From a virus, in the IMG/VR virus record IMGVR_UViG_3300042549_005307, positions 1-55,321 of that record: DNA of 55,321 bases; one strand, 5' to 3'. The stretch's first letter is position 1; the number at the start of each line of letters is the position of its first letter. The notes under the pieces are model-generated. The model ran no database searches. It saw nothing but the letters and a program-made list of their open reading frames with translations, and was not told the DNA's origin. Shown here piece by piece: positions 820-29,583 of this stretch. The position numbers and the translations under genes are program-made.

Positions 820-867
820 TAGTTTCCTACTTATTGTTGAACTAAAAAAACAATAATGAGGAAACTA
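820..867 (+). promoter_or_regulatory. Long hairpin that encloses the TonB-receptor start codon
   Basis: TAGTTTCCT (820-828) is the exact complement of AGGAAACTA (859-867), and ATTGTT (833-838) of AACAAT (849-854). The ATG at 856-858 lies in the internal loop between the two stems, and codons 2-4 are inside the outer stem. This arrangement could hide the start codon and make translation depend on a factor, on temperature or on RNA processing. Visible in the sequence; function inferred. Confidence 0.5.
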
Positions 868-3339
868 TTTTTATTATCAATTCTGTTACTTTCACATCAA
901 ATTTTCTCTCAAAACCTTTCAGGTAAAGTAAAAACAAACAAAGAAGAACTTATAGGTGTAACAATTTGGCTTACCAATAATACAACAAATAAGAAAGTAG
1001 GAACAACATCTGATATTGAATCCAAATATCAATTTACCAATATAGCAAAAGGAAAGTATTCAATCAAAGCATCTTTCGTTGGATACAAAGAATACATTAA
1101 AGATATTACAATTGATACTACAACTAACCTTGATATTCAGTTAGAAGAAGATACGAAAGTATTACAAGAAGTTGTAGTAAAGCAAGTAGCAAAGAAAGAA
1201 ACTGCAACTGCACTTATCAATACACTTAAAGCATCTTACATTGTAGCAGATGGATTATCAATTGAATCCATAAAGAAAACACCGGATAGAACTGTTGGAG
1301 ATGCACTTAAAAGAGTTAGTGGTGTAACAATCCAAAACGATAAGTTTGTTTTAGTTAGAGGTTTAGCTGATAGATACAACTCGGCTCTACTAAACAAATC
1401 AATCCTACCATCAACCGAACCTGATAGAAGAGCATTCTCATTTGATATTATCCCAACATCACTTATAGATAATATCATCATCAACAAAGGAGCATCAGCA
1501 AACCTACCGGGTGATTTCGCAGGAGGTTTAGTACAAATAACAACAAAAGAAGTTAGTGGTGATTTCTTTAATATATCATTGGGAGGAAGCTGGGGTTCAT
1601 TATCAACAGGACAGGATTTTAAGTTGGTAGACCCTATACAATTCCCAACATCATTCCCATCAACAAACACATATAGAATTGCTGGATTAGGTGATAGGAG
1701 AGCATACACTAAACTAATAGGTTCACCACAAACCGAAACATCAACATCTATTCCAAACTTAAATGGTAACTTATCATTTGGTGTTGTGAAAAACAAATGG
1801 AACATCTTATTCAGTTCAACTGCAAGAAACACATACTCTGCTAATACAACTGAAAGAATAGATTACCAATCATCTACCGAATTAGCATACAACTATAAAG
1901 ACCTAAATTACTCAAATGTACAATCATTAAACGGATTATTAAACATAGTGTATTTGGGAGAGAATCGTTATAGTTGGAAAACACTTGCTAACTACCAAAA
2001 CGAAAAATCATTTTTAAGTAGAGTTGGTGAGAACTATGATAATGTTCAGTATGTAGATAGTAAATCATCTAACTCAATTCAAAAGTTAGTATTCAATACA
2101 CAATTTGAAGGTAAGTTTAAAACATTAGATTTTAATGTAGGGTACAATCTTATGTTGAGAGACCAACCCGATTATAGAGTAACACCTTATATATCATCTT
2201 TATACACATCAACTCCCTACTCAATAGCATGGAGAGATACCTATCGTTTTTGGAGTGTAATGGATGAAAACTCATTCAATGGGGGATTAAACAAATCCAT
2301 AGGAGATATTCGTTTAGGAGTGGGTTATTTAAAGAAATTGAGAAACTTCAAAGCAAGAATATTCAGATACGAATCAACTGATTTGTTAAATGAGATTACA
2401 AACAACACCGATAGATATACTGCCGATTTTGATTTGGCAAATGCATATATGATGTACGAAAAAGAAATTGATAAACTAAAAATAAACACAGGGTTTAGAA
2501 CGGAATACAATTTATTTAAAGTTCAAACATCTGATTTTGGTGGACAGAGGATTTCAGTAGATAGAGAATATTTGGATATACTACCATCATTAAACGCAAC
2601 ATATTCAACATCGGAAAAAACAAAGGTTAGATTATCCGTAAGTAAAACATTAGCAAGACCAGAGTTTAGAGAGGTAGCTAATTTTGCGTATTATGACTTT
2701 GTTAGAAACGCACAACTATTAGGAAATCCAAACTTACAAAAAACGGATATATTCAATTCAGATATAAAGTTCGAGTTGTATCCTAAATCAGGTGAGAATA
2801 TATCAATCGGTTTTTTTGGTAAGAAGTTCTTCAATCCAATTGAGCAAGTTGTAGCAGATGGTTCAGTTCCATCAAATCTATTATTAACATATAAAAATCC
2901 AAATGAAGCATTGGTATATGGAGTTGAGATTGAACTTCGTAAAAAATTAAATGATTGGTTAGATTTATATTCAAACACATCATTCATCAATTCGGAAGTT
3001 GATATAAATGGAATTAAAAGACAATTGCAAGGACAATCAAACTATGTAGTAAATGGTGGATTGAACTTACATAAAAACAACAATACATTCAACATATCAT
3101 ACAATAGAGTTGGAGATAGAATATCAGCAGTAGGATTTCAAGGATACCCTGATATATTTGAAAACTCTCGTGATGTAGTTGATATTGTTATTCTTCGTAA
3201 AATTAAAAACGGAGAAATTAAATTAGCAGTATCGGATATATTCAGACAACCATTTGAGTATTACCAAAAACCAAATAGAACTTTAATTAAAACAAACAAC
3301 GAAACAACAGTTTCACTAACACTAAATTACAACCTATGA
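856..3339 (+). CDS. TonB-dependent outer-membrane receptor
   Basis: An 827-residue precursor with a clear signal peptide (about residues 1-19, ending IFSQ). A carboxypeptidase-regulatory-like beta domain follows (about 20-100), then the plug domain (about 110-240; the block RGLADRYNSALLN and a GDFAGGLVQI end) and a 22-strand-type barrel ending in the aromatic strand LTLNYNL. Such receptors use TonB energy to import a scarce ligand across the outer membrane. It overlaps the next lipoprotein gene by 4 bases (ATGA), so the two are translationally coupled. In Flavobacteriia I recall this subfamily beside the same lipoprotein family, often near phosphate genes; that link is from memory. It is very unusual beside phage genes, yet it is as AT-rich as its neighbours. 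The ligand cannot be read from the sequence. Confidence 0.93.
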   Translation: MRKLFLLSILLLSHQIFSQNLSGKVKTNKEELIGVTIWLTNNTTNKKVGTTSDIESKYQFTNIAKGKYSIKASFVGYKEYIKDITIDTTTNLDIQLEEDTKVLQEVVVKQVAKKETATALINTLKASYIVADGLSIESIKKTPDRTVGDALKRVSGVTIQNDKFVLVRGLADRYNSALLNKSILPSTEPDRRAFSFDIIPTSLIDNIIINKGASANLPGDFAGGLVQITTKEVSGDFFNISLGGSWGSLSTGQDFKLVDPIQFPTSFPSTNTYRIAGLGDRRAYTKLIGSPQTETSTSIPNLNGNLSFGVVKNKWNILFSSTARNTYSANTTERIDYQSSTELAYNYKDLNYSNVQSLNGLLNIVYLGENRYSWKTLANYQNEKSFLSRVGENYDNVQYVDSKSSNSIQKLVFNTQFEGKFKTLDFNVGYNLMLRDQPDYRVTPYISSLYTSTPYSIAWRDTYRFWSVMDENSFNGGLNKSIGDIRLGVGYLKKLRNFKARIFRYESTDLLNEITNNTDRYTADFDLANAYMMYEKEIDKLKINTGFRTEYNLFKVQTSDFGGQRISVDREYLDILPSLNATYSTSEKTKVRLSVSKTLARPEFREVANFAYYDFVRNAQLLGNPNLQKTDIFNSDIKFELYPKSGENISIGFFGKKFFNPIEQVVADGSVPSNLLLTYKNPNEALVYGVEIELRKKLNDWLDLYSNTSFINSEVDINGIKRQLQGQSNYVVNGGLNLHKNNNTFNISYNRVGDRISAVGFQGYPDIFENSRDVVDIVILRKIKNGEIKLAVSDIFRQPFEYYQKPNRTLIKTNNETTVSLTLNYNL

Positions 3340-19823: not shown

Positions 19824-21935
19824 ATGGCAAATATATCTTCTTCATTTAAGAAAGCATCCGAGCTATACCAAAGGGCATTGCAACAATACCAAGCGAAAGA
19901 GAAAGAGCAACTAGCTATTATCAATCAATTTAAAGTTGGGGATGTAACTATAAAATCTAAATTAAAACCACAACTAATAGCTATACATAAAGAGATGCAA
20001 CATTACCAAGATTTGGTAGATAGAGCAGAAAACGCCTTTGAAAGAGCATTAGTAAGTGAGCCAATTGATTTGGGTGAAGATACAATAGTAAAGAATAAAA
20101 AGACGGGTAATGTATATTCAGTAAAAAAAGCTAATCCAACAATCCATTCAAAACCATCGGCAAGTGATATAGCACAAGCTAAAGCTGATAATGGTGGAGA
20201 TGTAAAAGCAGAACCCAAAGTAGATGGTATGGCAACCGTAAACGGTATTGCATCCACAACTGGTTTAAGAGCACAAGCAGTAGCAGGTTGGGCAGATGAG
20301 AATGGTGTAAACCTATCAAAAGTAGCAGATGATTTGAAATCCAAAAAGTTAAAACCTATGGATTTTATGACTGCGGTAGTTGGTAATCCTGGTAACAAAT
20401 ATGCAAAGGATATAATCTCAAAGTATTCTCAAAAAGCAGAACCAACCAAAGGACCTGAATTAGATGTAGATAAACAATCACACATCAAAGATATTCCACA
20501 AAAGTTCCGTAGTATGGTATCTATGAAGATAGACCAATTAGCAAAAGCAGCAGATGAAGCTAAAGCAAAAGGTGAGAAAGCACCAAACTTTAATCTATGT
20601 GATATTACTATTCCTGGTACTAACTTATATTGTAAAGGAAACAAAGGTATTCCTCGTGAGGAAATGCCACAATTCAAAGGATACGCAAAGCCAGGTTCAA
20701 TCGCGGATAAATTACCAAAAAATAGTGATGGTGAAGTGGATACGGAAGCACAATTCAAAGTTCTATTAAAGAGAAATGGTGTAGCAGTATCAGAACCACA
20801 AGAAGTACCAGCAGACCAATTGAAAGCAACTCAAACTGAATTGGTTGGAGCAAAGGTAGCAGGTATGACAAAGGCATTAGAAACAGAACCTAATCATCCA
20901 AAGATTACTGCACCAATCTATGTATCCAACGATGGGTATGTATTAGATGGACATCACAGATGGGCAGCAGTTACATCGGCGGCAGTGGCAAGTGGTAAAC
21001 CTGCTATGATGAATGTAAGAGTAATTGATATGCCAATTAAAGATTTGGTTAAAATATCAAATGATTTTGCAGACCAAATTGGTATTCAACAAAAGAAAGC
21101 AGATGCAAATGCAGAAGCACCAAAGAAAGAAGTAACCGAAGTAACTACTAACGATTGGCACTACAAAGCAATCATGTCTCTTTGGGATAAAGGTGGTTCA
21201 TTTACCCGTAAGAAGTTAGGAACTCTTATATGTAAAGACCCAAAAGCAAATAGAAGAGATATTGAGGATGAATTAAGAAATTTTGGATATGATGAAGTAA
21301 CCAATGTTACAGATAGATTGAGAATTGAAGGTGTAATCAAAGAAGAAAAAGTTTATATTGATTACCTAAATAAGCAAAAAGGATTTAAGCAAGATAGGAT
21401 TAAATTCAATTCATACGAGGAAGCCGTAAAATGGGCAAGAAAGAATTTTGAAAAATTTAATTCAGATATGATTAAATATGAATCGGTAAACGAAGCATCA
21501 ACGAACCCGGTTGATATTATAAAGGATTTAGATAAAGTAAGACACGATTTAATTAAAAAGGTAGATGTTCTAATTTCTAAAAAGAAGAAACTTTATTCTA
21601 ATGTAGATATTACAACACCAATGAGTGCAGATGAAAAGCAATTAGATAAGGATATACAAAGTATATTTTCACAGATACAAAGCATAATTCAACAGAAGAG
21701 AAAGATAAAGACTGAAAATGTAGTGGTGGAAGATACAGGAACAGAGGCAGATGAAAGTGGAATGGCTAAAGGTCAAACTAAAACAGCAATAGAAGCAGCA
21801 ACAAGCATACAACAAATATTAGATTCAAAAGGAGACAACTTCGATGTTCCAGCGTGGGTTCAATCATATTTAGCATTAGCTAGTGATTATCTACAATCAA
21901 TAAATGAATATTACAAAGGAAATAACGAAAACTGA
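19824..21935 (+). CDS. Large multidomain phage protein with ParB/sulfiredoxin-like domain
   Basis: 703 residues. A coiled-coil N-terminus (about 1-75) is followed by a Lys/Ala-rich linker and a domain with NFNLCDITIPGTNLYCKGNK, then the ParB/Srx signature YVSNDGYVLDGHHRWAAV (about 370-390), whose DGHHR is typical of phage polyvalent proteins. After it come SYEEAVKWARKNFEKF and, at the C-terminus, DVPAWVQSYLALASDYLQSI, a helical motif I associate with virion-internal proteins of T4-like phages. Such proteins may be injected with DNA. Nuclease activity of the ParB/Srx domain is possible but not shown. Confidence 0.78.
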   Translation: MANISSSFKKASELYQRALQQYQAKEKEQLAIINQFKVGDVTIKSKLKPQLIAIHKEMQHYQDLVDRAENAFERALVSEPIDLGEDTIVKNKKTGNVYSVKKANPTIHSKPSASDIAQAKADNGGDVKAEPKVDGMATVNGIASTTGLRAQAVAGWADENGVNLSKVADDLKSKKLKPMDFMTAVVGNPGNKYAKDIISKYSQKAEPTKGPELDVDKQSHIKDIPQKFRSMVSMKIDQLAKAADEAKAKGEKAPNFNLCDITIPGTNLYCKGNKGIPREEMPQFKGYAKPGSIADKLPKNSDGEVDTEAQFKVLLKRNGVAVSEPQEVPADQLKATQTELVGAKVAGMTKALETEPNHPKITAPIYVSNDGYVLDGHHRWAAVTSAAVASGKPAMMNVRVIDMPIKDLVKISNDFADQIGIQQKKADANAEAPKKEVTEVTTNDWHYKAIMSLWDKGGSFTRKKLGTLICKDPKANRRDIEDELRNFGYDEVTNVTDRLRIEGVIKEEKVYIDYLNKQKGFKQDRIKFNSYEEAVKWARKNFEKFNSDMIKYESVNEASTNPVDIIKDLDKVRHDLIKKVDVLISKKKKLYSNVDITTPMSADEKQLDKDIQSIFSQIQSIIQQKRKIKTENVVVEDTGTEADESGMAKGQTKTAIEAATSIQQILDSKGDNFDVPAWVQSYLALASDYLQSINEYYKGNNEN

Positions 21936-21937
21936 TA

Positions 21938-22567
21938 ATGACTAATTTAGAATTGTTTGCAAGTATTGCTACAGCATTTATAATATCCGCAATAGGTCCT
22001 ACTGTTGTTGAGTGGGCAAAGTTAAAGCTTGCCAAACCCGAAGCAATCAATGACCCCGTAAAAGCAGAGCTTGTAAAGAGTTGTATAATAGATAGGGAAA
22101 TAGAAACAATAATGGATACATTGGGTGCTGATAGGGTTTGGATTTCTCAATTCCACAATGGTGGTAAGTTTTTACATTCCTCTAAATCAATACAAAAGTT
22201 TTCTATATTCCACGAAGTAAATGTAAGTGGGGTATCACCGGTAGCACATACATTTAGAAACATACCTGCTTCGTTATATTCAAGAGCGTTTGATGAATTA
22301 CTAAAAAATGGTAGCATATTTATAGCAGATTTTCAAGATGAAACAATAGCAACATTTGGATTGAAGGGTGGTGCAGAAGCAGTAGGTACGAGAGCATCTT
22401 ATACATTTGCTTTGTTTAATTTAGGAACAAATGAGTTTATGGGAACTTTGGGTGTAGATTGGGTAAAGAAACCAAAACAATTGAAACAAGACCAATTAGC
22501 TTATTTATCAGCAGAAGCAAATAGATTATCAGGATATATTTCTAATTTCCTACAAGATGAAAAGTAA
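21938..22567 (+). CDS. Membrane-anchored GAF-like phage protein
   Basis: 209 residues. One N-terminal membrane helix (FASIATAFIISAIGPTVVEW) is followed by a GAF-like alpha/beta domain with ADRVWISQFHNGGKFLHSSK and IQKFSIFHEV, blocks that recur in phage proteins of unknown role. FMGTLGVDWVKKPKQL is the last strand pair. A GAF fold often binds a small ligand, but no residue pattern reveals which. Its end overlaps the RimK-like gene by 11 bases. Confidence 0.72.
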   Translation: MTNLELFASIATAFIISAIGPTVVEWAKLKLAKPEAINDPVKAELVKSCIIDREIETIMDTLGADRVWISQFHNGGKFLHSSKSIQKFSIFHEVNVSGVSPVAHTFRNIPASLYSRAFDELLKNGSIFIADFQDETIATFGLKGGAEAVGTRASYTFALFNLGTNEFMGTLGVDWVKKPKQLKQDQLAYLSAEANRLSGYISNFLQDEK

Positions 22568-24005
22568 CGTATCGAATAATATGAAAAAATCATTAAGTAT
22601 AAAACCATTAGTTTCTGAAATTATTATGAAAGAACAAATGAAGAATAAACATATTCCAACGGTATTGGTATTATCATCAATGATTTCCGATTCCAAAGGA
22701 ACAATTGGTAAATTAAAAAAATCTTGTGAAAAGTTTGGATTACCTTTCTATGCAATACGTTCCAAAAATGCATTTATCGCTACAACACAAAATGAAAAAA
22801 ACTCTTTAACAATTGAAAATTATAATGGAAAAGGTGATGTTTTATTTATAAATCCAAGAAATACTATTTGTTTTGTAAGGGGAAGTGCAATTAAAACGGA
22901 AGTGGGTTCTGCACTTATTCGTATAATGGAAAATTATGGTGTATTTGCCGTAAATGATTATAAGTCTATGCAATTTTGCTCAAATAAACTTGCTTCTATG
23001 ATTGAATTGGAACGAAGAAAAATTCCCATTCCAAAAACTGCATATGTTCCATCAACTGGAAATATTGATACTGCTCTAAATAAGATTGGTGGACAGTTTC
23101 CAGTGGTTATAAAAACAATTACAGGTGCTGAAGGGATTGGTGTTTCAATTGTAGATTCATATCAATCTCTAAAATCAGTTTTACAATCTCTTTGGAAATA
23201 CGATGCGGAAGTTATTATTCAAGAATACTTTGAGGTAAAATTTGATGTTCGTACATTAGTTCTTGATGGTAAAATTATAGCTAGTGCAAAAAGAATACGA
23301 GGTTCTTCTGATTTTAGAACAAATCTGGCACTAGGTAATAGTGGAGAACCACATGAACTTACAGATATTGAAAAAGAAATTGTATTGAAAGCCGCAAAAA
23401 CATCAGGTGCTTTTTATGTAGCTGTTGACCACCTTTTAGTTAATGAACAACCATATGTGTTAGAATTAAATGGTTCTCCTGGTTCATCAAATATCTATAC
23501 TAATTATTATAATTCAGCAGGAGATAGTTCAACTGTAAGTGGGCAAGAATTAATTGATAATGTTGTAGAATACATATCAGATAAATCTAATTGGGAAATA
23601 AGTGTAAATGAAGCGGGTGTGGTAGAGAATGTGAAAATTGAAGGAATACCATATATAGCAAAATTAGATACAGGTAATTCAGGACACTCTTCACTTCATG
23701 CAACTGATATTAAAGTAGAAGAAATTGATGGTATCAAAATGGTTAATTTTGTAGATAATTCAGGACAAAAAATAACTAAACCATTAATATCTATTGTTAA
23801 AGTAAGAACTCATTCAATTTATGAAGCAGATTCCAGACCAGTTATTGAAATGGATGTTAGCTTTAGGGGTTTAGATTTTAAGAGAGTTCAATTTAATTTG
23901 GTAGATAGAAGTAAGAGTACATATCCAATTCTTTTAGGTGCAAGATTTCTAAAAAGAGCTAGAGTTTCTGTAAATCCGAATAAAACATTTGTATTACCCA
24001 ATTAG
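22557..24005 (+). CDS. RimK-like ATP-grasp ligase fused to a retropepsin-like domain
   Basis: 482 residues from the ATG that overlaps the previous stop (an in-frame ATG at 22581 is also possible). The ATP-grasp part has FPVVIKTITGAEGIGVSIVD (phosphate loop), EVIIQEYFEVKFDVRTLVLD and YVLELNGSPGSSNIY with the metal-binding Glu and Asn. RimK enzymes add Glu to ribosomal S6; relatives ligate amino acids to other carriers. From about 365, YIAKLDTGNSGHSSLHATDI has the DTG aspartic-protease motif (Asp371) of the RimB-like COG4067 family, and ILLGARFLKR is its closing strand. Ligase and protease of one modification are thus joined. The target in infected cells is unknown. Confidence 0.88.
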   Translation: MKSNVSNNMKKSLSIKPLVSEIIMKEQMKNKHIPTVLVLSSMISDSKGTIGKLKKSCEKFGLPFYAIRSKNAFIATTQNEKNSLTIENYNGKGDVLFINPRNTICFVRGSAIKTEVGSALIRIMENYGVFAVNDYKSMQFCSNKLASMIELERRKIPIPKTAYVPSTGNIDTALNKIGGQFPVVIKTITGAEGIGVSIVDSYQSLKSVLQSLWKYDAEVIIQEYFEVKFDVRTLVLDGKIIASAKRIRGSSDFRTNLALGNSGEPHELTDIEKEIVLKAAKTSGAFYVAVDHLLVNEQPYVLELNGSPGSSNIYTNYYNSAGDSSTVSGQELIDNVVEYISDKSNWEISVNEAGVVENVKIEGIPYIAKLDTGNSGHSSLHATDIKVEEIDGIKMVNFVDNSGQKITKPLISIVKVRTHSIYEADSRPVIEMDVSFRGLDFKRVQFNLVDRSKSTYPILLGARFLKRARVSVNPNKTFVLPN

Positions 24006-24841: not shown

Positions 24842-25615
24842 ATGATAAAGTTAAAGGATTTATTGAATGAAGGAAAGACTGGAAATGATTTTATTGATTT
24901 CCTACTTCTAAAAATTCAACCTACAATTAACGATATTATAACCCTACGAAAGCAAAAAGCTGAAAAAGAGGGTGAAAGATTTAGTGCTTTTGAAGAACAT
25001 CTTACTGAATTAACTTTAAAGTATGATTTACTAAAAGCATTGGGTATCTACACTAAATCAGGTGATAAAATGATTGATGGTAAAGTATCTAATTCTGGCA
25101 AAGGAGCATTAACAATTCATGCAATAATTGATAGAGATGGAGAAAGATTTCATCTTAACACCGATGTAATTTACGCAGGTGGATATAACATTCAAAAACT
25201 ACACTTCCGTTACCTAACCAAAACCAACTTACCAAGAGCATCTTCTAATCCTGAAGCAGATAAACTTAAAGCGGAATTGACTAAATTATCCAAAGGTGAT
25301 GCATTAAAAAAAGAAATTGAGCAATTTGATGGATGGATAAAAAAGAATACAGAGAAAGCAGAACAGAACTCTAAAGTTAATGATAAAGAAATTCTAAAAG
25401 GTGCTTTAATTTATACTTGGGATGATGTTGTTAAAAATGGGGCTGCTAAAAATTATAATAATTCTAAAGAACAATTTGAAAAAGAAAATAAACAGTATTT
25501 AAATAATTTTATTTCCAATTGGAAAAGCATGAACATAAAATCACCATTGGATTATGCTAAAACTCTCAAAGTAGCAAAAGTAAAATTGGAAAAGAAATTA
25601 GATGCATTAGTATGA
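24842..25615 (+). CDS. Likely capsid-targeted internal protein, 257 residues
   Basis: The N-terminus MIKLKDLLNE-G resembles the T4 capsid-targeting peptide (MKTYQEFIAE-A), which ends in an L/I-x-E prohead-protease site. Two later genes start the same way. The rest is helical and Lys-rich, with a short strand-rich centre (ALTIHAIIDRDGERFHLNTD). No catalytic motif. It overlaps the next gene by 4 bases. Packaging is an inference from the leader; the mature function is unknown. Confidence 0.7.
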   Translation: MIKLKDLLNEGKTGNDFIDFLLLKIQPTINDIITLRKQKAEKEGERFSAFEEHLTELTLKYDLLKALGIYTKSGDKMIDGKVSNSGKGALTIHAIIDRDGERFHLNTDVIYAGGYNIQKLHFRYLTKTNLPRASSNPEADKLKAELTKLSKGDALKKEIEQFDGWIKKNTEKAEQNSKVNDKEILKGALIYTWDDVVKNGAAKNYNNSKEQFEKENKQYLNNFISNWKSMNIKSPLDYAKTLKVAKVKLEKKLDALV

Positions 25616-26142
25616 TAAAATTAAAGGATTTATTGGTAGAAAAGAAACTACGAGTATTAGATTTTGATGATACACTTGTCAAAACCAAATCCTTTATATA
25701 CATTACACATAAAGATGGTTCTAAATCTAAACTAACACCCGGTGAGTACGCAGTATATAACGAAAAGCCAGGTGATGAATTTGATTTTGCTGATTTCCAA
25801 AAGGTAAATAAACCAAAGCAAATCCGTCCATTCACAAAGTATCTTAAAAAGGTAATAAATGATGAAGGTATAGATAGAGTAACTATCCTTACTGCTCGTT
25901 CAGCATACGAACCTGTAAAGAAGTATTTAAAAGATATTGGTATGGGTAATGTATATATTGTAACACTTGCATCTAATGACCCACAAAAGAAAGCAGATTG
26001 GATTGAATCACAAATAGAAAAGGGATACGATGATATATTCTTTTTAGATGATTCTAGAAAGAATGTGGAGGCAGTTAAGAAACTACAAAAAAAGTATCCA
26101 GAAATACGATTGGTAGTACAACAAGCAAAAGAAACATTTTAA
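25612..26142 (+). CDS. HAD-superfamily phosphatase with capsid-targeting-like leader
   Basis: 176 residues. After the leader MIKLKDLLVE-K comes VLDFDDTLV (Asp17, Asp19), the HAD motif I. VTILTARSAYEPV gives motif II (Thr), and DIFFLDDSRKN motif IV with two Asp, so the active site looks complete. The closest known layout is the phage and bacterial 3'-phosphatase part of polynucleotide kinase. The small cap insert (about residues 25-70) is Lys-rich. If the leader is cut after Glu10, a phosphatase would be carried in the virion. Substrate unknown. Confidence 0.82.
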   Translation: MIKLKDLLVEKKLRVLDFDDTLVKTKSFIYITHKDGSKSKLTPGEYAVYNEKPGDEFDFADFQKVNKPKQIRPFTKYLKKVINDEGIDRVTILTARSAYEPVKKYLKDIGMGNVYIVTLASNDPQKKADWIESQIEKGYDDIFFLDDSRKNVEAVKKLQKKYPEIRLVVQQAKETF

Positions 26143-26165
26143 AGGGGGAAGATTTCCCCTTTTTT
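26141..26165 (+). terminator. Intrinsic terminator, copy 1 of a terminator-promoter repeat
   Basis: GGGGAA-GAT-TTCCCC followed by six T, directly at the stop codon of the HAD gene. It is part of a 57-bp block (26145-26201) that recurs at 27881-27937 with only two mismatches. Confidence 0.88.
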
Positions 26166-26166
26166 A

Positions 26167-26198
26167 TTTGGTAAAATCCATAAAAAGTAGTATATTTG
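26167..26198 (+). promoter_or_regulatory. Promoter of the methyltransferase gene
   Basis: TTTG at 26167-26170, 20 bp, TATATTTG at 26191-26198. The ATG at 26207 is only 8 bases downstream, so the mRNA has almost no leader. A TTG at 26168 would start inside the promoter and is rejected. Confidence 0.82.
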
Positions 26199-26206
26199 TA
26201 ATTACT

Positions 26207-27541
26207 ATGATAAAACCATTTTCAATTCTCGATACTCGCACCAAAGAATGGCAAGACCGTAAACGATGGTGGATACAAACCCACAATATAAAATCAGAGT
26301 TAGGAAGGGAAGCTACTCAATCTAAAAGTAAATTTTGGGAAACCAATGAAGTTTCGGTTTCAATATTTGATGCTACTCTATCCGAAAAGATGTATGAGTG
26401 GTTTGTTCCTAAATGTGGTAAAGTATTAGACCCATTTGCAGGTGGAAGTGTTAGGGGAATTGTGGCAACGGAAATGGGATTTGGATACGATGGAATTGAT
26501 ATATCACAAACGCAAATAGAAGAAAATAAAAAACAATCGCATAAACCAAATTGGATTGTTGGTGATAGTGAAATAATGTTAGATTCAATTTATGATGAAA
26601 ATTATGATTTTGTATTTACTTGCCCACCATACTACGATTTGGAGGTTTATACAAATAACCCAAATGATTTATCTAAATTAAGTGATGTTGCATTTGATGA
26701 TAAATACATTTCCATATTAAAAAAAACAACAAAAAAATTAAAGAACAATCGTTTTTTTGCTATTGTAGTATCGGAAGTCAGAGAAGCATCAAAGACAGGG
26801 GATTACAAAATTGGAAAGTATAGAGGATTGGTAAACAAAACAATTTCGGCAATAGAAGAAGCTGGGTTGTATTTTTACAACGATATGGTACTATTCAATT
26901 CACAACATCAGGCTGGAAGAGTTGTAGATACATATTTCAAACGTAATCGTAAGGTAGCATCTGTTCATCAAAACGTATTAGTATTTGTAAAAGGAAATCC
27001 TGATTTGGCAACGGAGGATATTGAGTGGGATGGTACTTACAAATGTGTAGTTAATGGTAAACAATATAAATCATTCAGAGAGGCAGCAATCTCAATCAAT
27101 CCAAATGAATTGGTAGCATCTGAAGTAGAACGAAAATGCCAATCACCAAAAACCAAATACAAAGGGTGGCAGGTAATTGGTGAGGAAACCCATCCTATCT
27201 TAAAATATTGTATAGATGGGTATTACTTTGAATCTCCTGTACAAGCTGCAGAATACATTGAATATAGTGAAACTGAAATCCGTAATCGTATAGAATCAAA
27301 AGCTGAACATTATAGACATTGGATAAAATTGAGTGAACCAATTACAAATATTAACTACGATTTGCATGAAAAGAGTTTAACACACATTCAAATTAGAGAT
27401 AAAATACATACTATAAGTTGTAAAGGAGAATTATTTTACTCACTTAAAGAAGCAGGTGAAAGATTTGGGTTATCGGATGAACGAATTAGACAAAAAATAA
27501 ATTCGGACAAACATACTGACTATTTTTATCTATTTTCATAG
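26207..27541 (+). CDS. DNA methyltransferase with three C-terminal NUMOD1-like modules
   Basis: 444 residues from the ATG just behind the promoter. Motif I is VLDPFAGGSVRG (about 73-84, AdoMet binding) and motif IV TCPPYYDLE (138-146, catalytic), in the order IV-after-I of amino-methyltransferases acting on adenine N6 or cytosine N4. From about 279 on, three modules follow: 279-323 (CVVNGKQYKSFREAA then YKGWQVI), 334-374 (YCIDGYYFESPVQAAEYI) and 403-443 (ISCKGELFYSLKEAGERFGL). Each resembles NUMOD1/IENR1 DNA-binding repeats of homing endonucleases. It sits between duplicated terminator-promoter blocks. No cognate nuclease is adjacent. Confidence 0.88.
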   Translation: MIKPFSILDTRTKEWQDRKRWWIQTHNIKSELGREATQSKSKFWETNEVSVSIFDATLSEKMYEWFVPKCGKVLDPFAGGSVRGIVATEMGFGYDGIDISQTQIEENKKQSHKPNWIVGDSEIMLDSIYDENYDFVFTCPPYYDLEVYTNNPNDLSKLSDVAFDDKYISILKKTTKKLKNNRFFAIVVSEVREASKTGDYKIGKYRGLVNKTISAIEEAGLYFYNDMVLFNSQHQAGRVVDTYFKRNRKVASVHQNVLVFVKGNPDLATEDIEWDGTYKCVVNGKQYKSFREAAISINPNELVASEVERKCQSPKTKYKGWQVIGEETHPILKYCIDGYYFESPVQAAEYIEYSETEIRNRIESKAEHYRHWIKLSEPITNINYDLHEKSLTHIQIRDKIHTISCKGELFYSLKEAGERFGLSDERIRQKINSDKHTDYFYLFS

Positions 27542-27548
27542 AACTTAA

Positions 27549-27556
27549 TATTTATA
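27549..27556 (+). promoter_or_regulatory. TATTTATA box before the 90-residue gene
   Basis: TATTTATA lies 20 bases before the ATG at 27577, directly after the methyltransferase stop. Confidence 0.4.
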
Positions 27557-27576
27557 TTATATAAAATTATAATAAT

Positions 27577-27849
27577 ATGATAAAGTTAAATGATTTAATT
27601 AAAGAAGCTGGTATTCCAAAAATGTATGTTAAGTTTTTGGCAGTTTCTAAAAAAGTTAGAGAATTAGAGGATGCACAAAAGGCGTTATCGCAAAAATACT
27701 TTGCAGAAAAAGATTTGAATAAAAAAGAGGCATTATTAACTCAATTAAAAAAAGGAACTCAAACTTTAAATGGATTTAGAAGAAATTTAGCTGATATTGA
27801 AGAAAAGTATGTGATGGGTTTAGATAGTGATGCCGAATTTAATGGATAA
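27577..27849 (+). CDS. Small helical protein with capsid-targeting-like leader
   Basis: 90 residues. It begins MIKLNDLIKE-A, the third copy of the leader with an I-x-E end. The rest is a Lys/Leu-rich coiled coil (KKVRELEDAQKALSQKYFAE). Size and composition are like internal head proteins of T4-type phages. Followed by the second copy of the terminator. Confidence 0.7.
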   Translation: MIKLNDLIKEAGIPKMYVKFLAVSKKVRELEDAQKALSQKYFAEKDLNKKEALLTQLKKGTQTLNGFRRNLADIEEKYVMGLDSDAEFNG

Positions 27850-28357: not shown

Positions 28358-28969
28358 ATGCAAATTACTAGTAATTCTAAACAATACCTAATTGTAGATG
28401 ATTTATACAATGAAGTTGAAATGAATAATATATGGAAAGAGTTAGATTTTTTAACTCATGCAAATAAGATGCTCCCACCAGAAAAATCAGGAACTGCAAC
28501 TAGTCTTTCCGGTGAAATTCTAAAAAAAAATTCTGCTATATTCTTGGATGATTTTTACACAAAAAGAGAATATTCAAACATTTTAACATATTATAGAAAA
28601 ATATATAAAGATAATATTTTTGATGAATTTGAAAAAATGAATAGCGATTTTAAATACGCTTCTATAACAAATGCAGATAGAACTTTTTTAAGTTATTATG
28701 AAAATAGTGATTACTATAAACCACACACCGATACTGCTGTTTTAACTTATTTATATTGGTGTCATAAATCACCTAAAGCGTTTGAAGGTGGTAATTTATA
28801 TTTATCGGATGCAAATGTAGAAATTGAATATAAAAATAATAGATTAGTTATATTTCCATCATATTATATGCATAGTGTATCACCAATTAAAATGTTAAAT
28901 GATGATGCATTACCATTTAGTACATTTGGTCGTTATTGTATAACAACATTTACTTATATAGGTATATAA
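28358..28969 (+). CDS. 2OG-Fe(II) oxygenase, tandem copy 1
   Basis: 203 residues. Iron ligands are read as His123-x-Asp125 (KPHTDTA) and His172 (YYMHSV), with Arg192 (GRYC) to hold 2-oxoglutarate; these are the prolyl-hydroxylase-type positions on a double-stranded beta-helix. FEGGNLYL is the usual turn before the last ligand. It is followed after 2 bases by a paralogue with the same length and start. Substrate (protein, sugar or nucleic acid) not visible. Confidence 0.87.
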   Translation: MQITSNSKQYLIVDDLYNEVEMNNIWKELDFLTHANKMLPPEKSGTATSLSGEILKKNSAIFLDDFYTKREYSNILTYYRKIYKDNIFDEFEKMNSDFKYASITNADRTFLSYYENSDYYKPHTDTAVLTYLYWCHKSPKAFEGGNLYLSDANVEIEYKNNRLVIFPSYYMHSVSPIKMLNDDALPFSTFGRYCITTFTYIGI

Positions 28970-28971
28970 TT

Positions 28972-29583
28972 ATGCAAATCACTAGTAATTCTAAACAATA
29001 TTTAATTGTAGATGATTTCTTCAATGAGAGTGAACTAATATCTCTTTGGAAGGAGTTGGATACATTGCAAAGTAAAGATGTATTACAACCACCAAGCATT
29101 ACTGCTGGAGCAAAGGATGCAAATGGTAATATAATCAAAAAGAACTCTGGTATATTTTTAGATGATTATTATGAAAACAGAGAGGATTCATCTATACTCA
29201 ATATGTACGATAAGTATATTTGTGAAGAGGTATATGAAAAGTTCCCAACAATGAGTCCAGAGTTTAAGTATGCATTCTATGTAAACTTTGATAGAACTCT
29301 ATTGAATTATTATGAGAATAATGACCATTACAAACCACATACCGATGCCGCAATCTTAACTTGCTTATATTGGTGCTATAAAGAACCAAAAGCATTTGAA
29401 GGTGGTGATTTAACCTTACATCAAATTGGTGAGGTTATTAGTATAAAGAACAATAGATTGGTTATATTCCCATCGCATAATGTACATTCAGTTTCACCAA
29501 TATCTATGGAAGAAGTTGGGCAAGGTAAAGGTAGATATTGTATCTCAAAATTTTTATTTGTATATCCATCCGTAGGAAAATAA
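28972..29583 (+). CDS. 2OG-Fe(II) oxygenase, tandem copy 2
   Basis: 203 residues from the ATG at 28972. It shares the first 15 residues with copy 1 (MQITSNSKQYLIVDD) and keeps His123, Asp125, His172 and Arg188. The middle has diverged, which fits a duplication with a change in substrate. A longer start at 28936 would lie inside copy 1 and is not needed. ThyA follows after 1 base. Confidence 0.88.
   Translation: MQITSNSKQYLIVDDFFNESELISLWKELDTLQSKDVLQPPSITAGAKDANGNIIKKNSGIFLDDYYENREDSSILNMYDKYICEEVYEKFPTMSPEFKYAFYVNFDRTLLNYYENNDHYKPHTDAAILTCLYWCYKEPKAFEGGDLTLHQIGEVISIKNNRLVIFPSHNVHSVSPISMEEVGQGKGRYCISKFLFVYPSVGK

Follow-up and report, generated by a model that had tools for sequence, protein, structure and literature searches.

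The window analysed here, a virus record of 55,321 bases (G000) that is a piece of a larger virus, carries three genes on its plus strand whose products begin with nearly the same ten residues, a leader that we compare with the capsid-targeting sequence (CTS) of phage T4. An earlier note on this DNA had pointed to a shared start MIKL[K/N]DL[L/I]xE at 24842, 25612 and 27577, and all three open reading frames (ORFs) do lie there, with the N-termini MIKLKDLLNEG, MIKLKDLLVEK and MIKLNDLIKEA, respectively. The first gene (24842..25615) encodes a protein of 257 residues, the second (25612..26142), which overlaps the first by 4 bases, a HAD phosphatase of 176 residues, and the third (27577..27849) a protein of 90 residues. 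The leaders proper, MIKLKDLLNE (24842..24871), MIKLKDLLVE (25612..25641) and MIKLNDLIKE (27577..27606), are each predicted to be cut after residue 10. A search of the rest of the window for the leader, which the note had proposed, recovered the three known genes and no further MIKL[KN]DL[LI]xE start among the 88 predicted ORFs, which were called by a simple longest-ORF rule under which some starts may be wrong.

The 257-residue and 90-residue proteins have no assigned function and match no known family above a cut-off in Pfam, PHROGs or NCBIfam. The 257-residue protein has no PHROGs or NCBIfam family and a single Pfam row, under its cut-off; it matched no PDB fold at E <= 0.001, and structure comparison of its model, which is composed of helices, a beta sheet and long helices, yielded no relative. 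It has nine homologous loci, one of them partial, and I2, L4, L8 and E10 of its leader are invariant across nine aligned sequences. In the models of both larger proteins the leader is the low-confidence part, with a predicted local distance difference test score (pLDDT) below 50 for residues 1-11 of the 257-residue protein. The identification of the 25612 product as a HAD phosphatase, also made in the note, was borne out by 21 aligned sequences in which D17xD19xT21, T94, K127 and D146-D147, which we take to be the HAD motifs, are invariant or nearly so. Its model (pLDDT 85.1) reaches Z scores of up to 9.2 to HAD structures and has DxDxT, T/S, K and DD on a HAD Rossmann fold. The protein matches the polynucleotide kinase family phrog_415 (E=4.4e-7), and its fold is like those of MDP-1 and the 3'-phosphatase domain of T4 Pnkp, among others, the score against T4 Pnkp (VIA-align Z 8.6) being tied with those of MDP-1 and other HAD enzymes.

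By BLASTP, which covered two of the three possible pairs, the alignment of the 24842 and 25612 products consists of the leader alone (residues 1-12), and the weak alignment of the 24842 and 27577 products reaches residue 21 and goes no further. Since similarity is confined to the leader region in the two compared pairs, the three genes are not simple paralogues. One could speculate that they are nevertheless recent duplicates that retained their starts, the leader being functionless by itself, and the four-base overlap of two of them would suit such an origin; this is hardly credible, however, given the lack of similarity past residues 12 and 21 and the presence of the leader on 58 families with unrelated mature parts, counted among 123 leader ORFs of at least 60 residues in the matches listed.

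The pattern MIKLKDLLxE was found in at least 120 stretches of IMG/VR viral contigs (130 occurrences within the 120 stretches listed, which are not a random sample), compared with 2 for a rearrangement of the same codons. A search of 257 Gb of bacterial and archaeal genomes for the leader pattern gave 13 stretches: two resemble phage leader proteins, one begins an ORF that is perhaps a host gene, and the remaining ten are short or have in-frame sequence ahead of the leader. When representatives of the 58 families were compared with Pfam, 13 families were matched at E <= 0.001, with NUDIX in two representatives, Zeta_toxin, AAA_33, phage lysozyme and DUF2608 (HAD) in one each, and others too. 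Matches of leader proteins to 2'-5' RNA ligase and Acb1 lay below the Pfam cut-offs; the label Acb1 (anti-CBASS) was considered for one protein and rejected at a score of 20.2 against a cut-off of 27, and we therefore call this protein 2H-phosphoesterase-like only. A guess that the largest leader family (L223) is an ADP-ribosyltransferase was likewise abandoned, as no Pfam, PHROGs or NCBIfam match supported it. Glu10 is present in 66 of 79 starts of the form MIKLKDL[LF], although the search did not demand it (80 of the 120 rows, giving 87 matches, 80 of them distinct and 79 with a residue 10). Residue 9 varies in this set (N, K, T, L and others), and no single residue occupies position 11 in more than 12 of the 79.

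Because the leader sits at the start codon and is AT-rich, it might be thought merely to aid translation or expression, as a start region favoured for late genes. Among relatives, however, the residues of the leader are the same and the codons different, so that the constraint acts on amino acids; the reordered pattern is nearly absent, and, as described below, proteins also carry the essential part of the motif internally. We regard an effect on translation alone as highly improbable.

The composition of the other ORFs in the window leads one to expect about 1.6e-6 starts of the form MIKL[KN]DL[LI]xE, a post hoc figure, the motif having been taken from these very genes. A positional test over the ORFs of the window and five relatives (1,457 in all) makes no use of the exact window motif: the end of [LIVM]xx[LIVMF][LIVMF]xE falls on residue 10 in 25 of them, whereas residues 20-59 average 2.7 per position, and for [LIVMF][LIVMF]xE the figures are 29 and 9.4. 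In the 42 ORFs with L, I, V or M at position 8 and Glu at position 10 (among 1,443 distinct ORFs), hydrophobic residues are over-represented at positions 2, 4 and 7 and under-represented at 5, 6 and 9. The register M..h..hh.E, where h denotes a hydrophobic residue, occurs six times in G014, five times in G008, four times each in G001, G002 and G003, and three times in the window, with means of 0.2 to 0.8 after shuffling in these six records. A degenerate leader pattern gave 12 matches in ten relatives, distributed over seven of the ten records, and its reversed control gave 0.

A CTS is established for T4, and CTS-like sequences have been reported in T4-related phages (PMC9026906, PMC3012670 and PMC5694885). 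In T4, ten residues of IPIII suffice for packaging, and mutants assign targeting to residues 4 and 7 and processing to residues 8 and 10 (PMC9026906). T4 annotation has gp21 cleaving gp23 and gp24, and residues -10 to -1 of IPII are annotated as the removed part (record X04567). The parallel with the T4 leader drawn in the note extends to the register: the three window ORFs have a ten-residue N-terminal peptide with hydrophobic residues at 4, 7 and 8 and Glu10, as do IPII, IPIII and gp24, and the positions conserved in the leader are those at which the T4 mutants have their effect. In the deposited T4 genome, M..h..hh.E picks 4 of 254 ORFs, namely IPII, IPIII, gp24 and 61.1. Gene 61.1 (L334:18966-19130) starts MKTFKEFIKED, in the exact register, and its product is possibly an unrecognised T4 head protein.

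The window contains no tRNA genes; nor does it encode a gp23 capsid protein or an S77 (gp21-type) prohead protease, since it covers only 55 kb of a larger virus. The gp21-type protease for which the note had recommended searching was thus missing here, and it was found in all 14 relatives of at least 164 kb. Across 21 records, the window included, Peptidase_S77 occurs in 15 and gp23 in 14, and both are present in all 14 of at least 164 kb. GELDHP and ISSRG are kept in all 15 proteases, and the capsid proteins carry LL[DS]E at the position of T4 gp23 FLTE^A in 14 of 14, with IVSE^A in Flavobacterium phage immuto; together with the frequency of Glu10, these capsid-protein sites point to a protease specificity of L/I-x-E. 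In five relatives, ORFs with the leader pattern are concentrated around the protease, where they account for 15 of the 100 ORFs no more than 8 kb away, against 28 of 1,279 elsewhere. Of 15 further leader-positive contigs, picked mostly for size, ten contain the protease. It was found in none of three large contigs without E10 or from the random pattern, a weak control of few contigs, and was present in a fourth control contig, which has a variant leader.

Immuto is a named, cultured relative with such leaders, MENFDLKKFLVEN among them. Several of its proteins (L182-L185) have common starts such as MENFDLKKFLVENKLT, and its annotated 5'-deoxyribonucleotidase has the leader-like start MKKVMGNLADLLLEES. 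Capsid-protein starts of relatives (L107, L110, L112, L116 and L118), such as MANFDLSKLMEG, resemble the immuto cargo leader MENFDLKKFLVE, hinting that the docking site of the capsid propeptide may also receive cargo.

The predicted cleavage site also persists where the leader changes. The HAD phosphatase homologues, for which the best 80 of 226 loci were kept, display 60 distinct N-terminal contexts, some with the ten-residue leader or a variant, others with a leader of 30-50 residues containing WNGxxVExGKVYSNP. [LIMFV]xE lies no more than 8 residues from the HAD domain in all 60 contexts and no more than 7 in 58, many of these contexts being related by descent and hence not independent; the control rate in ten-residue windows of mature domains is 6% (635/11,220). 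The longer leader is common to only three families at the loci examined. Among homologues of the 2H phosphoesterase, the one in Microbacterium phage Pumpernickel lacks a leader of this form, and the phage gives no S77 match; the one in Maribacter phage Molly is leaderless too, but Molly, whose S77 match is borderline (27.1 bits against a cut-off of 27), is not a clean control. In LR756508, S77 is over the cut-off, yet the homologue lacks a leader. Two uncultured giant phages have the 2H enzyme behind other leaders, ending F-I-K-E or F-M-K-E, with S77 under the cut-off. The homologues in L331 and L333 (uncultured giant phages LR756502 and LR745206) start MIKKYLEFMKES and MKLKKYKQFIKES, nearer to the leader of T4 than to that of the window.

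Domains borne by leaders in one protein also recur inside others, of up to 1,615 residues. The first 45 post-leader residues of 264 leader ORFs (113 families) were compared with 7,611 ORFs, which gave, with the HAD family excluded, 82 distinct internal contexts from 27 families; in 24 of the 27 families at least one context has the site within three residues. After three contexts still preceded by a leader had been dropped, [LIVMF]xE stood exactly at the start of the homologous domain in 33 of the remaining 79 (expected 1.6%) and within three residues of it in 58 (expected 12%), with other letters in place of the Glu found exactly at the junction in two contexts for [LIVMF]xD, none for xK and two for xG. 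Where Glu occupies position -1 (n=39), a hydrophobic residue is found at -3 in 33 cases, compared with 3 cases at -2 and 7 at -4. The protein at L091, for example, has the leader-like start MRLKDALNE and contains the domain of the third window protein (27577) as its C-terminal part, the homologous segment beginning directly after ESVNE.

Six long precursors, of 1,142 to 1,615 residues, were scanned. Four of them start MSDLSKFLVE, MNELSKYLME, MNELSNYLVE and MTKLTEWLTE, with hydrophobic or aromatic residues at 4, 7 and 8 and Glu10. A cytidylyltransferase-like (CTP_transf_like) domain is present in five of the six, in one case just under the cut-off; one of these chains adds a kinase-like AAA_33/Zeta_toxin domain and another a sub-cut-off acetyltransferase (GNAT). 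Several disparate enzyme domains are thus joined in one chain, four of the six chains having at most one enzyme family. No peptidase family was matched in the six at E <= 0.001, which does not exclude one. The 1,490-residue precursor of G008 lies about 8 kb from the protease of that record, and shares phrog_2859 with a 703-residue multi-domain protein of the window (19824..21935, plus strand). The latter is a candidate precursor for the prohead protease: its own N-terminus is not leader-like, but a domain of the leader-borne type, with 63% identity to a leader-borne domain, begins at residue 86, directly after PIDLGE (junction 85/86). The long multi-domain chains look as if they were polyproteins, packaged in the head and cut by the prohead protease.

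The leader could instead be an uncut docking tag for another compartment or complex (membrane, replication factory or host machinery), with E10 forming part of a binding helix. In its favour, many cargo genes are distant from the head genes, 28 of the 43 leader-pattern ORFs in the five relatives being more than 8 kb from the protease. A docking tag, however, leaves unexplained why [LIVMF]xE stands at junctions without the rest of the leader, why HAD homologues keep the site behind quite different leaders of 30-50 residues, and why the register is held in common with T4 substrates. We consider such a tag quite unlikely.

Taken together, these sequence facts lead us to conclude that the shared first ten residues very probably constitute a capsid-targeting sequence of the T4 kind, cut by a gp21-type protease, on cargo that would be ejected; packaging, cleavage, retention with the DNA and ejection are what we infer from them. 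The hydrophobic residues at 4 and 7, and probably also at 2, would attach the protein to the prohead core while the head is being assembled. A prohead protease of the gp21 type would then cut after Glu10, reading a hydrophobic residue at 8 and Glu at 10 and accepting any residue at 9, and the freed protein would remain in the head with the DNA and, at the next infection, be ejected into the host. The window's predicted cargo would be the HAD phosphatase and the two proteins without assigned function; related viruses would use the same leader, or others ending in the same site, on many unrelated proteins. Cargo domains also occur linked in precursors, some as long as about 1,600 residues, in which the site lies at the joins, and the protease therefore probably removes the tag and splits the precursors as well. 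What a capsid leader predicts at the level of sequence was, apart from the exceptions given below, found where it could be looked for: portability, Glu10, the T4 register, a protease together with gp23, and sites at junctions. The suggestion in the note of a set of cargo proteins packed in the head is accordingly supported by sequence as regards the capsid leader, and was too small a picture as regards the cargo, which may comprise many proteins per lineage and large precursors.

Several observations weigh against this conclusion. T4 IPI and Alt fail the strict register. With [LIVMF]xE alone, residue 10 does not stand out clearly (49 ORFs of 1,467, the background mean being 36.5). E10 is missing in 13 of the 79 MIKLKDL[LF] starts, several of which are short chance ORFs and one of which has L-N-E four residues later, and 21 of the 79 junction contexts have no [LIVMF]xE within three residues. 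The window itself, being a fragment, carries neither gp21 nor gp23. Finally, the protease is missing from five of the 15 further leader contigs; gp23 lies near the contig end in two of these, and neither gene is present in the other three, one of which is 207 kb long.

It is also conceivable that the leader does send proteins to the head, but as lasting parts of the shell or core rather than as ejected enzymes. T4 gp24 is a shell protein with a leader in the same register, and in the relatives several leader ORFs sit between the protease and the scaffold or capsid genes, some of them between protease and scaffold. The NUDIX, kinase, HAD and nucleotidyltransferase cargo, on the other hand, looks intracellular and suits ejection better, and we think it unlikely that structural roles account for the leader as a whole. 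Likely, the leader proteins are a mixture of ejected enzymes and shell or core parts.

The cargo that can be named acts on nucleotides, nucleic-acid ends or proteins, and roles in anti-defence or RNA repair are guesses. A broader proposal, which we hold to be about evenly balanced between right and wrong, is that in a large, mostly uncultured branch of T4-related viruses the head serves as a maturation chamber: exchangeable enzymes, and polyproteins of up to about 1,600 residues, would be loaded by a ten-residue tag and separated inside the prohead when the capsid protease cuts at hydrophobic-x-Glu; the free enzymes would then be injected together, to repair RNA and nucleotides or disarm host defence before phage genes are expressed. 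Injected proteins usually become known only after proteomics; with a sequence tag the repertoire could be listed from genomes, those of uncultured viruses included. The capsid protease is further predicted to double as a polyprotein-processing enzyme, and the leaders would provide natural tags for loading enzymes into phage heads.

Three other loci in the window deserve mention. Near the start of the record, 856-3339 encodes an 827-residue protein like a TonB-dependent outer-membrane receptor (OMP_b-brl_3, Plug, CarboxypepD_reg), which is a receptor gene carried by the phage or else host sequence at the edge of the contig. At 22557-24005 a RimK-like ATP-grasp domain is fused to a PF05618 'Zn_protease' domain in a single protein. 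At 28358-29583 lie two adjoining paralogues with identical starts, MQITSNSKQYLIVDD, which we take to resemble 2-oxoglutarate oxygenases.

In the open-access literature and few subscription journals, we found no publication on this leader or on prohead-protease processing of such precursors. The closest known system is the T4 CTS, present on the internal proteins and in the gp24 and gp23 propeptides, which shares with the present leader the length of ten residues, the hydrophobic residues at 4, 7 and 8, Glu10 and portability, as well as, here in the relatives, a gp21-type protease with an L-x-E site on the capsid protein. The letters differ (MIKLKDLLxE here, MKTYQEFIAE in T4), and the leader considered here, whose packaging is predicted, is found on far more proteins, enzymes included, and is linked to multi-domain precursors. 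T4 Alt, a head-packaged ADP-ribosyltransferase, is likewise an enzyme delivered to the host along with the DNA, as predicted here, but its leader MELITELFDE is spaced otherwise, and HAD, NUDIX, kinase, 2H-like and other proteins make up the present cargo. T4 Pnkp has in its 3'-phosphatase domain the HAD fold and DxDxT of the 25612 product, which lacks the kinase domain and whose fold match is tied with several HAD enzymes. The phiKZ-like head proteins (SPN3US, PMC5694885) are similar in that a prohead protease cuts their propeptides after Glu, as predicted here, and in the identical N-termini of diverged paralogues, whereas the motif there is A-x-E or S/A-x-E and the propeptides are mostly long. 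The polyvalent proteins of Iyer et al. 2017 (PMC5512222) are similarly large chains of disparate enzyme domains that are predicted to be injected, but their release is there ascribed to peptidase domains in the same chain, whereas the joins described here match the prohead-protease site and several of the chains start in the capsid-leader register.

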